A DNA stretch of 33,480 nucleotides from a bacterium (lineage in GTDB: Bacteria; Patescibacteriota; Gracilibacteria; Peribacterales; Peribacteraceae). A program made the translations under genes and the position numbers. Location of the stretch: assembly GCA_027623015.1 (NCBI GenBank), contig JAQBVR010000012.1, positions 1 to 33,480 on the forward strand, given 5' to 3'. The notes below the pieces were generated by a model. The model searched no databases. It had not been told where the DNA came from and saw only the letters and a program-made list of their open reading frames with translations. This document shows, one piece after another, positions 6,701 to 12,631 of this stretch; position 1 is the stretch's first letter, and each line of letters begins with the position of its first letter.

Positions 6701-7063
6701 ATGCCAAAACGACGGTACAACGAAGGCGATTGGCGAAAGGACCCGTGGTTTCGTGCTCTTTGCTCAGCTATAAGTTCTTGTAAGAATGAAGCCGACATTG
6801 CAGACATCCTCAGAGATATAGGAACACTCAGTGAAATTCAAGCATGGAGTGAACGTCTTGAGGTAGCCAAACTCCTCACTACAGGCCTTACATATCGTCA
6901 GGTAGCTGCGAAGACTGGTGCAAGCACTACGACGGTGACAAGAGTGGCAAAGTACTTAGAAAACGGTACAGGAGCGTATAAGAAGTATTTGCATGGGAAT
7001 ACTAAAAATCCTGATTCTATTACACAGAGAAAGTCTGAATCGATGATTCAGAAGTACCTTTAA
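6701..7063 (+). CDS. YerC/YecD family TrpR-like DNA-binding protein
   Basis: The 120-residue protein matches the YerC/YecD branch of the TrpR superfamily: an N-terminal WRKDPWFRALCSAI segment, a central ILRDIGTLSEIQAWSERLEVAKLL helix pair, and a helix-turn-helix of the form GLTYRQVAAKTGASTTTVTR (about residues 62-81). Members bind DNA as dimers; the ligand of this branch is not established, and nothing here points to tryptophan. It stands alone between fusA and ribD, apparently with its own promoter and a leaderless mRNA. Good family call, target unknown. Confidence 0.9.
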   Translation: MPKRRYNEGDWRKDPWFRALCSAISSCKNEADIADILRDIGTLSEIQAWSERLEVAKLLTTGLTYRQVAAKTGASTTTVTRVAKYLENGTGAYKKYLHGNTKNPDSITQRKSESMIQKYL

Positions 7064-7069
7064 CATGCA

Positions 7070-7200
7070 AAATTCTAAATTCCAAATTCCAAATCTCAAA
7101 AAAACCTAATAGGTACAAGAATGGTTTGGAATTTGTAGCTTGAAATTTGGAATTTTCCTTGCAGTTTGCAATTTGCAGTTTGCAATTTCATACTCCACCC
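7070..7200 (+). repeat. Two heptad arrays and an inverted repeat ahead of ribD
   Basis: Heptads aaattct, aaattcc, aaattcc, aaatctc run from 7070 to 7097. Their complement reappears near 7124-7157 (TTTGGAATTT twice), so the region can fold back. A second array of ttgcagt and ttgcaat units alternates from 7159 to 7186, followed by ttcatac and tccaccc, the last of which touches the ribD ATG. I see no gene or clear promoter in it. Confidence 0.75.
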
Positions 7201-8115
7201 ATGTCACACAATACGTTCATCCACCATTGCCTAAAGCTTGCCGAAAAGGGCAGGGGAGTGGTTGGCATCAATCCAATGGTAGGTGCCGTACTTGTTCATG
7301 GTGATCAGGTGCTTGCCGAAGGGTGGCATGCAGGCTATGGAAAACCTCACGCTGAGCTAGCACTTTTGCAAAACAATAAACACATTGTCAGTACAGATGA
7401 TGTGCTCTACATCAATCTTGAACCCTGTTGCCATCACGGCAAGACACCACCATGCACGGGTGCGATTATCGCAAATGGTATACGAACTGTTGTTTTTGGT
7501 ATGTATGACCCCAATTCCTTCGTTGCTGGACGGGGGATCGCAACACTACGTGCAGCAGGTATCCATGTGTTAGGCCCTGTACTCCCTGAACTCTGTCGGA
7601 GGCTCAATAGGGGATTCGTCTCACTCCATGAGCAAGGAAGGCCGTTTATCACGCTAAAAAAAGCGAGAACGAAAGATGGAAGGACATCTGGCAAGATCAC
7701 TACACCTGAGCAAGATGAATGGTCGCACCAGTGGTTACGGGGGAAACATGATGCCATCCTTGTAGGCGTCGATACCGTGATAGCAGATGATCCTTCACTA
7801 ACGATTAGGACCCAGGACCAAGGGCTAAAGGACCAAGGGCGCCAACCTCTTCGCATAGTCTTAGATCCCAAGGGGCGTATGCCAAGCGATGCAAAGCTTG
7901 CCTTAGAATTAGCTGATGGAACCATGGTCATCACGAAGAAAGACATACCTTATAGAGACGGGCAGTTTAATCTACAAAAACTCCTGAAGTTCCTTAGCAC
8001 TCCTACAGATGATTTCCACGGCATCGCAAGTATCCTTGTTGAAGGTGGGCAGAGAACATGGGAAAGTTTCCGAAATGCAGGATTTGTGGATGAGGAGGTA
8101 GTTCTTTCTAGGTGA
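7201..8115 (+). CDS. ribD: RibD-like deaminase/reductase, short at the C-terminus
   Basis: Bifunctional riboflavin-pathway enzyme: pyrimidine deaminase then NADPH-dependent reductase. The deaminase domain (about residues 1-145) has INPMVGAVLV, the zinc-site HAE in GKPHAEL and PCCHHGKTPPC. The reductase domain starts near FITLKKARTKDGRTSG and keeps ILVGVDTVIADDPSLT and LVEGGQRTWE. The protein ends at 304 residues just after the VDE motif, about 45-55 residues short of typical RibD. The missing piece is not found in another frame; the downstream DNA is the convergent oxidoreductase gene, whose end overlaps by 8 nt. An upstream TTG at 7147 would add 18 residues read from the heptad repeat, so the ATG is preferred. 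No other riboflavin gene is in the window. Confidence 0.88.
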   Translation: MSHNTFIHHCLKLAEKGRGVVGINPMVGAVLVHGDQVLAEGWHAGYGKPHAELALLQNNKHIVSTDDVLYINLEPCCHHGKTPPCTGAIIANGIRTVVFGMYDPNSFVAGRGIATLRAAGIHVLGPVLPELCRRLNRGFVSLHEQGRPFITLKKARTKDGRTSGKITTPEQDEWSHQWLRGKHDAILVGVDTVIADDPSLTIRTQDQGLKDQGRQPLRIVLDPKGRMPSDAKLALELADGTMVITKKDIPYRDGQFNLQKLLKFLSTPTDDFHGIASILVEGGQRTWESFRNAGFVDEEVVLSR

Positions 8116-8782
8116 ATGCCTTCAGCAGTTTCTCTCCCATCCGCATGATCCTACCCCTAGCTCTATTGGCTAGAGGTGCTTTTCCAGTCCTTTCGTACTC
8201 TGCAACAACTTTAGCAAATACCAGCCCCTTTTCTTCGACTGCAGTAAGCGATGCAGGGCGTTTATCGACGATAAGTCCAAAATTCCCATTTGGGAGTGTG
8301 CATTTTTGCTCGAAGTGATGGCCCATATAGCTCGCCCCAAAGTACTGTAGTGCTTCAGCTATGCAACTCGTGGCTTTCTCCATCATTGCTGTCCATCCGA
8401 TCATAGGGACACCGGCAGTGAAGATTATATAGGAGGGGAGTCCTTTCAGTGTTCCTTTCCGTCGTGTTTCATCGAGAGCAAAGCTGCCCATACGATCGAT
8501 AAGATTTATCAGATGAGCAGGCACACTATAGTTCCAGACTGGTGTAGCGATAACGAGACCATGAGCATTCTCGATGAGTGATTGCACAGCGCAGAAGTCT
8601 TCCTCTTGGTGGCAGACAGATTTGTAAAAGTCGAGAGAGAAGTGCTTGATGTTGAGGTCCTTCAAGTTCTTTGTGTTGATAGAGACGTCACCATGCTTCT
8701 GCATGCCTTTTACGAAAGCATCTTTAAGGTATGCGCAGTTGCTTGGTTCGTTTGTGCCGGCAACGAGTACGAGAATATTTAT
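8108..8782 (-). CDS. NAD(P)H-dependent FMN oxidoreductase (flavodoxin fold), probable ATA start
   Basis: Flavodoxin-like NADPH-dependent FMN reductase family. The first ATG in frame (8704) gives 198 residues and would remove strand beta1 and the FMN phosphate loop. In the same frame upstream the DNA encodes NILVLVAGTNEPSNCAYL, which is exactly the expected N-terminus, preceded by ATA at 8780-8782. No ATG, GTG, TTG or CTG occurs between the upstream in-frame stop and 8704. A TATACT box ends 6 nt before the ATA, so the ATA coincides with the predicted transcription start. Downstream landmarks are VIATPVWNYSVPAHLINLID and IIFTAGVP. With the ATA start the product is 224 residues. Either AUA initiates on a leaderless mRNA or the gene has lost its start. 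Confidence 0.8.
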   Translation of the reverse strand: MNILVLVAGTNEPSNCAYLKDAFVKGMQKHGDVSINTKNLKDLNIKHFSLDFYKSVCHQEEDFCAVQSLIENAHGLVIATPVWNYSVPAHLINLIDRMGSFALDETRRKGTLKGLPSYIIFTAGVPMIGWTAMMEKATSCIAEALQYFGASYMGHHFEQKCTLPNGNFGLIVDKRPASLTAVEEKGLVFAKVVAEYERTGKAPLANRARGRIMRMGEKLLKAFT

Positions 8783-8788
8783 ATATGT

Positions 8789-8816
8789 AGTATAGCGGGT
8801 GTGTCGCTTGCAACAA
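8789..8816 (-). promoter_or_regulatory. Promoter of the FMN oxidoreductase gene
   Basis: On the minus strand TTGTTG (8816-8811) and TATACT (8794-8789) are 16 nt apart. The predicted start of transcription falls on the ATA at 8782. This placement is the main support for the proposed start codon. Confidence 0.55.
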
Positions 8817-8842
8817 TGGGATTTGGATTACAAAATCGAAAG

Positions 8843-8878
8843 AAATAAGAGGAATAAAAGAAATAAGGGAAATAAGGG
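8843..8878. repeat. Four 9-nt tandem repeats
   Basis: AAATAAGAG, GAATAAAAG, AAATAAGGG and AAATAAGGG follow each other without gaps. The array sits upstream of the oxidoreductase promoter, between two divergent genes. The remaining bases up to the nrdJ promoter (8879-9054) show nothing I can identify. Confidence 0.75.
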
Positions 8879-9054
8879 AGGGTCTCTTATTTCTAAATAT
8901 CCAATATATATTCACAACATAGTCAATGTAGTAACGAGCTGCGACTGTTACACTTTTACACTTTACGTAGCGGTATACATTGTGTCTAAGTACTACACCG
9001 TATCACTGCAAAAATATATGTGAATCGGCGAATAGCTAACACATCTTGCAAATA

Positions 9055-9082
9055 TTGACACGTGTTCTTCTGTGTTTATATA
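9055..9082 (+). promoter_or_regulatory. Probable nrdJ promoter
   Basis: A perfect TTGACA at 9055-9060 is followed after 16 nt by TATATA at 9077-9082 (or after 18 nt by TATAAC). Transcription would begin near 9090, giving a leader of about 113 nt that contains both NrdR-like boxes. Confidence 0.55.
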
Positions 9083-9103
9083 ACCGTTGCAAGAAAGACA
9101 GTG

Positions 9104-9151
9104 TATCTATATCTTGTGTACTTGTAGTCCTCGTGCCACTAGATAGTGTGT
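9104..9151 (+). promoter_or_regulatory. Pair of NrdR-box-like operators upstream of nrdJ
   Basis: The cores CTATATCTTG (9107-9116) and CTAGATAGTG (9139-9148) match the NrdR core CwAtATaTwG at 9 and 8 of 10 positions, and both are followed by TGT as in the consensus. They are 32 bp apart, the two- to three-helical-turn spacing typical of paired NrdR boxes. Known NrdR represses ribonucleotide reductase genes when dATP is high. Here the boxes would lie just downstream of the proposed promoter and block elongation or a second promoter. No nrdR gene is in the window. Confidence 0.6.
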
Positions 9152-9202
9152 TTTCCTTGTCTTCTGTCATTAGAACATCATTGTATTTTTCCGCCCCACC
9201 CC

Positions 9203-12200
9203 ATGAACCCTTCTTCTGCAGCGCCAAGCGCCACGTCAGCATCTTCTACAGCATCCCAAAAGCTGAATGCAGAACATAAATCGTCACCAAGTATGGTTGC
9301 AGGTTCTGGTACAGGAAAAGGACTGTCTATTCCTCGAGTATTTACCACTCCAGGAAGTGACCCTCTTGAAGAAGTCACATACGAAAAGCGAACGAGTCGC
9401 ATAGCAAATACAGATGGCTCTGTTGTTTTTGAGATGGAAGGTGCGGAGATCCCAGCAGACTGGAGTCAAGTTGCGACAGACATCATGGTAAGTAAATACT
9501 TTCGCAAAGCAGGCGTGCCACAGTTCAACGATGCTGGAGAAGTAAAGCGAGATGAAACGGGCGAAGTTGTCACAGGTCCAGAACGTTCTGCAAAACAAGT
9601 GATCAGTCGCCTTGCTGGATGTTGGCGTCACTGGGGTCAGCAGTATGGATATTTCGAAACTGCTCCAGATGCACAAGCATTTGAAGATGAGCTTAGCTAC
9701 ATGCTCATTCACCAGATGGCTGCTCCAAACAGTCCACAATGGTTTAACACAGGACTTCACTACTCCTATGGGATCACAGGGCCTGCTCAAGGACACTGCT
9801 ACTGTGACCCAGAAACAGGAGAGCTCAAGAAGAGCACAGATGCGTACACACACCCTCAGCCTCACGCATGTTTTATCCAGTCTGTAAAGGACGACATGGT
9901 AAATGAAGGTGGAATCATGGATCTCTGGGTACGTGAAGCTCGACTATTTAAGTTTGGATCTGGTACAGGAACAAACTTCAGTTACTTGCGTGGCGCTGGC
10001 GAACCCCTCTCAGGTGGAGGAAAAAGCTCTGGTCTTATGAGTTTCCTGAAGATAGGAGATCGTGCAGCTGGTGCTATAAAGTCTGGAGGTACTACTCGTC
10101 GCGCTGCCAAGATGGTCTGCCTAAACCTTGATCATCCAGATATCGAAGAATTTATAAACTGGAAGGTAAACGAAGAGAAGAAGGTTGCTGCTATGGCGCA
10201 AGCTGGGTACGACACTGACTATAACGGCGAAGCATACACTACGGTATCTGGTCAGAACTCCAATAACTCCATACGTATAGAGCACAGCTTTTTCGAATCT
10301 ATAGAGAAGGACAGCGACTGGTGCCTCTACTGGCGTACAGAGCTACGGAAGGCTGAGAAAGAAGGTCGTAAGGCTGAGCCGTGCAAGACGATGAAGGCGC
10401 GCGATCTCTGGGATCAGATTGGTTACGCAGCGTGGTCTTGTGCAGACCCTGGTGTACAGTACGACACGACGATCAATGACTGGCACACATGTCCAAATGA
10501 CGGTCGTATAAACGCTTCAAACCCATGTAGTGAGTATATGTTCCTCGACAACACTGCATGCAACCTTGCGTCTATCAACCTTCTGAAGTTCTTTGATGAC
10601 GAGCACGGCACATTCGCAGTAGAGAAGTATAAGCACGCAGTACGTCTCTGGACTATTGTTTTAGAAGTATCTGTCCTTATGGCACAGTTTCCAAGTGAAG
10701 AGATAGCAGAGCTGAGCTACATCTTCCGTACTCTAGGCCTTGGATTTGCAAACATTGGTGCCATGCTTATGCGCATGGGTATTCCATATGATAGTGAAGA
10801 ATCACGTTCTATTTGTGGAGCTCTTACAGCCATCTTGACTGGGGAGAGTTACGCTACGTCTTCGGAGCTTGCAGAGACACTGGGCGCATTTACAAAGTAC
10901 AACAGCAATAAAGAGCATATGCTTCGTGTTATGCGAAACCACCGTCGTGCTGCATACCACGCACCGAAATCTGAGTATGAACAGCTGAATATAGCACCTA
11001 TCGGTATTGACCAAAACAAATGTCCAGACTACTTGCTTGAGTCTGCCAAAGAATGTTGGGACAGGGCACTTGCAAGTGGGGAGAGGCACGGATACCGCAA
11101 CGCACAGACCACTGTTATCGCACCAACAGGCACCATCGGCTTACTCATGGACTGTGATACTACAGGTGTAGAGCCAGACTTTGCTCTTGTGAAGTTCAAA
11201 AAGCTTGCTGGTGGTGGATACATGAAGATTGCAAATCAGTCTGTGGAGCCAGCACTCAAAAACTTGAAGTACACCGAGGCAGAAGTGCGTGACATCATGA
11301 AGTACGTGATGGGAACACTTAGTCTCGAAGGTGCTCCACACATCAACCGCAATTCCCTTATCGAAAAAGGTTTGACCAATGAGGGCATCGCAAAGATCGA
11401 ACAAAACCTACCTCAAGTCTTCGATCTCTCATTTGCCTTTAACAAATGGACTCTCGGAGAAGACATGATGAAGAAGCTGAAGTTTACTCAGGAGCAAATT
11501 GCCGATGACACACTCAATGTTCTTTCTGCACTTGGATTTACGAAGAAGCAGATGGATGAGGCAAACACTTACGTGTGTGGTCATATGACTGTAGAAGGAG
11601 CACCGCACCTCAAAGATGAGCATTATGCGGTATTTGATTGTGCAAACAAGTGTGGACAAGATGGACAGCGATTCATCGCTGCAGAGGGGCATATCCGCAT
11701 GATGGCAGCAGCACAGCCGTTTATCTCTGGTGCTATCAGCAAGACTATCAATTTACCAAATGAAGCTACAGTAGAAGATATAAAGCAGTGCTACTTTCTT
11801 AGTTGGAAGCTTGGACTCAAAGCAAACGCCTTGTACCGTGATGGATGTAAACTTAGTCAGGCACTCAGCAACAAATCTGACAAAGACGAGAACAAGACTG
11901 AGGAAGAGGCTAAAGAAAAGGTTATTGTAGAAAAGATCGTCATCAAAGAAGTGCCAAGGCGTCGCAAGCTACAAGACGAGCGAATGTCTATAACACATAA
12001 GTTCTCTGTTGCAGGTCACGAAGGATACCTTCATGTTGGTATGTACGACGATGGTTCTCCTGGAGAGATCTTCATCAAGATGAGTAAAGAAGGGTCTACG
12101 CTCTCTGGCGTCATGGATACACTTGCACTAAGCCTCTCTATGAACCTGCAATACGGTGTACCACTCGATGTATTGTGCGACAAGCTTGTACACTTACGTT

Positions 12201-12631
12201 TTGAGCCTATGGGTATGACAACAAACCAAGAGATTCCTATGGTAAAGAGCTTCATGGACTATCTTGGTCGCTGGCTCGCTCTCAAGTTCCTTACAAAGGA
12301 ACAAGCCATGCAGTACCACAACAAAGATCTTGTCGAGAAAGCTTATAGCGAAGGAAGTAAAAGCAAAGATGCATATGCGATGAGACTGTCTGTCATAGAC
12401 GAGGGTGCAACAGCACACATGATAGACCTCGAAGCAGCAGTAGAAGAAAAGACCCACGACGAGATGGAGGAAGCTGCACAGCAAGTAACGACAGTGACCT
12501 CGAAGACACAGGTCGCAAAGAAGCAGGGGTTCACTGGTTCGATCTGTTGCGGCTGTGGAAGCTTACGTATGAAGCGTAATGGATCTTGTGAAGTGTGTCT
12601 CGACTGTGGTGCAACAAGCGGTTGTGGTTAA
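9203..12631 (+). CDS. nrdJ: Adenosylcobalamin-dependent (class II) ribonucleotide reductase
   Basis: Reduces ribonucleotides to deoxyribonucleotides using a cobalamin radical, so it needs no oxygen or separate radical subunit. The 1142-residue chain has the family blocks in order: FGSGTGTNFSYLRG (about residue 250), the NPCSEYMFLDNTACNLASIN active-site loop (about 440-458), the TVIAPTGTIG segment, and a C-terminal TSCPD-type region with GVPLDVLCDKLVHLRFEP. The tail is a cysteine-rich zinc ribbon (CCGCGSLR through CLDCGATSGCG), probably also the redox tail that regenerates the active site. No intein is present. A GTG at 9146 would lie inside an NrdR box and add residues unlike the family; the ATG at 9203 follows CCGCCCCACCCC and has no Shine-Dalgarno. 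Confidence 0.95.
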   Translation: MNPSSAAPSATSASSTASQKLNAEHKSSPSMVAGSGTGKGLSIPRVFTTPGSDPLEEVTYEKRTSRIANTDGSVVFEMEGAEIPADWSQVATDIMVSKYFRKAGVPQFNDAGEVKRDETGEVVTGPERSAKQVISRLAGCWRHWGQQYGYFETAPDAQAFEDELSYMLIHQMAAPNSPQWFNTGLHYSYGITGPAQGHCYCDPETGELKKSTDAYTHPQPHACFIQSVKDDMVNEGGIMDLWVREARLFKFGSGTGTNFSYLRGAGEPLSGGGKSSGLMSFLKIGDRAAGAIKSGGTTRRAAKMVCLNLDHPDIEEFINWKVNEEKKVAAMAQAGYDTDYNGEAYTTVSGQNSNNSIRIEHSFFESIEKDSDWCLYWRTELRKAEKEGRKAEPCKTMKARDLWDQIGYAAWSCADPGVQYDTTINDWHTCPNDGRINASNPCSEYMFLDNTACNLASINLLKFFDDEHGTFAVEKYKHAVRLWTIVLEVSVLMAQFPSEEIAELSYIFRTLGLGFANIGAMLMRMGIPYDSEESRSICGALTAILTGESYATSSELAETLGAFTKYNSNKEHMLRVMRNHRRAAYHAPKSEYEQLNIAPIGIDQNKCPDYLLESAKECWDRALASGERHGYRNAQTTVIAPTGTIGLLMDCDTTGVEPDFALVKFKKLAGGGYMKIANQSVEPALKNLKYTEAEVRDIMKYVMGTLSLEGAPHINRNSLIEKGLTNEGIAKIEQNLPQVFDLSFAFNKWTLGEDMMKKLKFTQEQIADDTLNVLSALGFTKKQMDEANTYVCGHMTVEGAPHLKDEHYAVFDCANKCGQDGQRFIAAEGHIRMMAAAQPFISGAISKTINLPNEATVEDIKQCYFLSWKLGLKANALYRDGCKLSQALSNKSDKDENKTEEEAKEKVIVEKIVIKEVPRRRKLQDERMSITHKFSVAGHEGYLHVGMYDDGSPGEIFIKMSKEGSTLSGVMDTLALSLSMNLQYGVPLDVLCDKLVHLRFEPMGMTTNQEIPMVKSFMDYLGRWLALKFLTKEQAMQYHNKDLVEKAYSEGSKSKDAYAMRLSVIDEGATAHMIDLEAAVEEKTHDEMEEAAQQVTTVTSKTQVAKKQGFTGSICCGCGSLRMKRNGSCEVCLDCGATSGCG

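Follow-up and report, generated by a model that had tools for sequence, protein, structure and literature searches.

The locus examined here raises a simple question: how could translation begin on a gene whose reading frame has an ATA codon where its relatives have a standard start? The gene lies in the window, by which we mean the whole 33,480-nt stretch of DNA that was analyzed, and its product is predicted to be an FMN reductase. The original prediction held that no standard start codon exists between the upstream stop and residue 27, and our reading of the minus-strand frame (8827-8108) confirms it. The frame is closed on its 5' side by TAA at 8830-8828, and the 15 codons that run from its start to the ATA (TCC AAA TCC CAT TGT TGC AAG CGA CAC ACC CGC TAT ACT ACA TAT) include no start codon. 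ATG, GTG, TTG and CTG are all absent upstream of the ATG of Met27 at 8704-8702. The features of the gene, from 5' to 3', are listed below.

8828 to 8830, minus strand: in-frame upstream TAA that closes the frame (sequence)
8789 to 8794, minus strand: -10 box TATACT, followed by ACATAT (8788-8783, 6 nt) and then by the ATA (sequence; 8.0 bits)
8780 to 8782, minus strand: ATA codon aligned with the ATG or GTG start of homologues, the proposed 5'-terminal start codon (sequence and homologue alignment)
8111 to 8782, minus strand: 224-codon NAD(P)H-dependent FMN reductase or flavodoxin-fold reductase, stop codon at 8110-8108 (Pfam and AlphaFold2)
8738 to 8779, minus strand: strand beta1 (residues 2-7) and FMN phosphate loop AGTNEPSN (residues 8-15) (alignment and predicted structure)
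8702 to 8704, minus strand: first in-frame ATG (Met27), at the end of helix 1 (sequence and predicted structure)

Read from the ATA at 8782-8780, the protein begins INILVLVAGTNEPSN and belongs to the Flavodoxin_2/FMN_red group, matching PF02525 (9.9e-18) and PF03358 (3.2e-17) with scores of 65 bits (cut-off 27) and 62.9 bits (cut-off 24), both above the curated cut-offs. The AlphaFold2 model is a confident flavodoxin fold (pLDDT 91) with a strand at residues 2-7, a loop at 8-14 and a helix at 15-28, and among solved structures the nearest folds are those of FMN-dependent azoreductases and quinone reductases. The expected N-terminus was proposed to be encoded only after the ATA, and the conserved N-terminus does begin exactly at that codon; the remainder of the frame is likewise intact as claimed, with 224 codons free of frameshifts and stops. 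Strand beta1 and the phosphate loop are present only if translation starts at the ATA, earlier, or at most a codon or two away. This bears directly on the idea that the true start lies elsewhere, at Met27 (8704), at an AUU at residue 3, or at an unseen upstream start, which we regard as highly improbable. Some relatives do begin 1-18 codons upstream, and AUU (8776-8774), two codons downstream of the ATA, is a known rare initiator. However, in the window gene only 15 codons, none of them a start codon, separate the ATA from the stop that closes the frame, and the AUU sits 6 nt inside the predicted 5' end and offers no gain over AUA. Met27 was rejected on structural grounds, since a protein begun there would lack beta1, the phosphate loop and helix 1; judged by the model, it is not credible as the start of a functional enzyme.

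Our comparison set comprised 74 genomes of the same family (Ca. Peribacteraceae), and the relatives considered are Ca. Peribacteria/Peregrinibacteria, mostly Peribacteraceae. A homologue of the reductase was found in 63 of the 74 and is absent from 11 (8 of the 57 high-quality genomes lack it); judging from this absence from 11 of 74 genomes, the reductase is dispensable in the family. We compared the window gene with 61 of its homologues. At the position of the ATA, 39 of these have ATG and 6 have GTG; the remaining 16, with the exception of L008, have an ATG or GTG start 1-18 codons upstream. In all, 45 of 61 have a standard start at the aligned codon, 15 start upstream and L008 stands apart. 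An ATA at this codon with no alternative start occurs in 1 of 62 genes, that of the window genome only, and is not conserved in relatives; L057 also has ATA there, yet with an ATG eight codons upstream. In L008 (G070, genome coverage about 3.5), the frame opens GAT GGC TAC ACG ACA TAC TTG, without ATG or GTG, and its -10 box, TAAGAT, points to the ACG, where its sister L011 has GTG; alternatively, a TTG two codons on may be the start. The observation of ATA in place of the relatives' start codon holds. As homologues carry ATG or GTG at or upstream of this codon, the ancestral state is a standard start, and the window gene differs by one base. From the alignment, this is a single lineage-specific G-to-A change of ATG to ATA and not a system.

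The surroundings of the gene are conserved. The order trpR-like gene, ribD, FMN reductase (minus strand) and class II ribonucleotide reductase, spanning 6701-12631 of the window, is kept in near relatives and is ancestral, and an Rfam scan of the window found nothing. The neighbors are as follows.

6701 to 7063, plus strand: Trp-repressor-like protein, syntenic neighbor (profile match and synteny)
7147 to 8115, plus strand: RibD-like deaminase/reductase, convergent with the reductase gene, with an 8-bp overlap at the 3' ends (profile match and synteny)
9203 to 12631, plus strand: class II ribonucleotide reductase, divergent neighbor, with ATG 9203 taken as the likely start (profile match and synteny)

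We built a -10 matrix from the window genome's own genes. The TATACT box upstream of the ATA reaches 8.0 bits on it, and 21% of that genome's aligned starts reach at least 7 bits, versus about 1% of control windows. The spacing of 6 between box and ATA is the modal spacing among this genome's genes. Of the 60 relatives whose start is usable, 45 have a TANNNT box that ends 6-9 nt upstream of it (46 of 61 with the window gene included), compared with 12 of 186 control positions (6%). At the genome scale, we assembled from stretches the whole window genome (G000; 1,099,175 bp) and a relative (G050; 1.22 Mb). Across 291 aligned ortholog starts in these two genomes, TANNNT boxes peak sharply at spacings of 6-9 (54, 39, 28 and 19 boxes at 6, 7, 8 and 9 in G000, and about 8 per position elsewhere), while Shine-Dalgarno tetramers form no peak; roughly 40% or more of these starts have a -10 box at 6-9 nt. 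There is also no Shine-Dalgarno in the sequence upstream of the reductase ATA, and a motif search of the G000 and G050 sequence gathered did not locate the 3' end of the 16S rRNA. The pile-up of boxes at one spacing, together with the missing Shine-Dalgarno peak, suggests that leaderless mRNAs are common in both genomes, and leaderless transcription looks to be a common mode in Ca. Peribacteraceae; a literature search found no paper on common leaderless expression in this CPR family. With its strong and conserved promoter geometry, the reductase gene fits this predicted mode. The original prediction had the TATACT box set the transcription start on the ATA itself: the box and its spacing are indeed strong and conserved, though the start position is deduced from that spacing.

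Whether ATA serves as a start more widely in this genome was addressed in two ways. In a codon scan of G000 and G050, each codon lying 6-8 nt after a -10 box and opening a long frame was counted; ATG stands out in both genomes (27% in the window genome) and GTG in G050, whereas ATA is not enriched among leaderless open reading frames of the window genome (5.1% versus a median of 4.5% over codons). A survey of ortholog starts covered about 537 gene pairs and misses genes with variable N-termini, such as infC. In it, just two genes, the reductase and one for a pilT-type ATPase, are clearly left with no usable start, and there is no further clear case of an ATA start. Together these surveys led us to reject a general ATA start system in the window genome. 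We also rejected a mitochondrial-type code in which AUA is reassigned to Met: ATA codons of the window genome align with Ile 1260 times and with Met 86 times, and a tRNA-Ile(UAU) is present; TilS was not detected above the cut-off in G000. By this comparison, AUA is ordinary Ile in elongation here. In a separate observation, the initiator tRNA of both genomes carries A29-U41 where the first G-C pair of the anticodon stem, G29-C41, is usual, giving a stem of CGAGG/CCTCG (the pair numbering is our own reading).

G000 C12:27925-28001, plus strand: initiator tRNA, A29-U41
G050 C1:588410-588486, minus strand: initiator tRNA, A29-U41

Contig C21 of G000 holds two further oddities. The pilT-type gene (C21:37081-38106, plus strand; L204, L281) has an in-frame TAA at codon 48 and is otherwise intact, and its homologues in G023 (L290) and G037 (L295) likewise carry a stop. 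From about 8475 on the plus strand, a frame stays open for about 7,292 codons and would encode a giant protein for a 1.1 Mb genome, and no ATG, GTG or TTG occurs in the first 25 codons after its candidate ATT start.

Two readings, both serious rivals, would remove the need for any unusual initiation. The ATA may be a mistake of the consensus or the assembly, or an allele untypical of a population that has ATG. This we consider unlikely, although the ATA is one base from the family consensus and unique to the window genome among 62 genes, and the source is a draft assembly in 46 contigs that, as with its relatives, is most likely a MAG; a second strain of the species did not turn up. The stop in pilT might be an error of the same kind, but very few clear lesions occur among about 537 conserved genes, and as the G023 and G037 homologues also carry a stop, it need not be an error at all. 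Were this one stop an error, it would imply some 5e-5 errors per base, at which only about 0.05 start losses would be expected across the genome. Alternatively, the change of ATG to ATA is real and has silenced the gene, or nearly so, leaving an early pseudogene or strain-level null allele too young to have decayed further. This leans to the improbable side but deserves somewhat more weight: AUA is a poor initiator with no Shine-Dalgarno here, the family can lose the gene (11 of 74 genomes overall, 8 of 57 at high quality), and the same genome's pilT-type gene has its one in-frame TAA. At near-invariant columns, moreover, the window gene (L001) departs at 5 of 43, the most of all 62 homologues, which is a weak hint of relaxed constraint in the alignment; two of the five departures, F85Y and V171I, are conservative. 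Against silencing stand the 224 uninterrupted codons with their confident fold, the intact promoter box, and a divergence from relatives that matches that of the neighboring genes. The relative size of the mutational targets also argues against it, as stop-gain is a 15-19 times likelier route to inactivation than start loss. Under random damage, stop-gains should exceed start losses by 15-19 to 1, yet about 537 conserved genes show one clear in-frame stop (pilT) and one start loss (the reductase), where about 0.05-0.07 start losses from errors or random damage would be expected given one clear stop. This count favors a tolerated start change modestly, not decisively.

The reading we prefer, tentatively and at somewhat short of even confidence, is that a lineage-specific change of ATG to ATA left a leaderless mRNA that begins at or near AUA, where weak initiation most likely persists. 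Under this proposal, a G-to-A substitution in this Peribacteria lineage would have turned the start codon ATG into ATA, and RNA polymerase would start at the A of AUA, or no more than two bases away from it, as the spacing of the box implies. A 70S ribosome carrying fMet-tRNA would then bind the 5' end of the mRNA, a mode of binding reviewed for leaderless 5' ends in PMC9031893, and the C:A mismatch of fMet-tRNA with the third position of AUA would be tolerated, if weakly. In E. coli, even GUG, UUG and CUG work poorly on leaderless mRNAs (PMC9031893). The window genome encodes IF3, a factor that discriminates against weak pairing at the third position (PMC10158994) and that, given the weak C:A pair, would select against an AUA start. 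AUA had been called a very rare initiator in bacteria, but it is less unheard-of than that claim suggests: infC, ccpN and citZ of Staphylococcus aureus use natural AUA starts, the lineage-specific AUA of citZ supporting roughly 10% of AUG expression and that of ccpN up to 30% in rich medium (PMC13009471). By analogy with these starts, at about 10-30% of AUG, we infer low-level expression of the reductase, a reduced enzyme level being the likely consequence of a weak AUA start.

The ribosomes of this family may be permissive in other respects. The gene infC, which encodes IF3, is known for using rare start codons. In this family (L312, at G000 C30:22108-22677 on the minus strand, and L313-L341), it starts with CTG in 24 of 28 genomes and TTG in 4 of 28, never with ATG or GTG, and TTCCCC is conserved about 10 nt upstream. 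A CUG start in 24 of 28 genomes suggests that these ribosomes accept non-standard starts. A bolder version of our preferred reading is that this is a functional bacterial leaderless mRNA starting with AUA and lacking a Shine-Dalgarno, and that, with the CUG of infC, Peribacteria use IF3-sensitive rare starts at 5' ends to set enzyme levels; we hold this to be doubtful at present. Little is understood of how ribosomes select the start codon when no Shine-Dalgarno is there to guide them, and in E. coli hardly any codon but AUG is tolerated on leaderless mRNAs. A natural leaderless AUA start, if true, would show how loose this choice can be. Ca. Peribacteraceae appear to be rich in leaderless mRNAs, to leave the Shine-Dalgarno unused and to start infC with CUG, which would allow comparative genomics to test leaderless start-codon choice in a phylum without cultures. 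Gene callers will misplace or miss such starts, and the family-wide leaderless promoters and conserved CUG start of infC may be of greater interest than the ATA itself.

As an enzyme, the window reductase shares its flavodoxin fold and Pfam matches (PF02525, PF03358) with FMN-dependent NADH azoreductases and NAD(P)H:quinone reductases, though it is only 14-19% identical to the nearest solved structures and is known here by fold and profile. Its proposed manner of initiation has three partial parallels. In mitochondria, some leaderless mRNAs start with AUA, which there means Met and is decoded by a modified tRNA-Met. The AUA at the 5' end is what we propose for the window gene as well, whereas AUA in the window genome means Ile; leaderless translation does occur in mitochondria (PMC7797035). 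The leaderless mRNAs of Deinococcus-Thermus (PMC12340547) share with the present genome a -10 motif about 6-7 bp before the start, the lack of an RBS and a genome-wide abundance, but they use standard start codons (a GTG example is shown), and our organism is a Patescibacterium. The AUA sites of S. aureus (PMC13009471) were demonstrated by ribosome profiling and reporters, whereas ours is predicted from DNA, and infC and ccpN of that species have an extended Shine-Dalgarno, whereas the window gene has none and is predicted to be leaderless. In citZ of S. aureus (PMC13009471), as proposed for the reductase, a lineage-specific AUA serves as the start codon of a metabolic gene.
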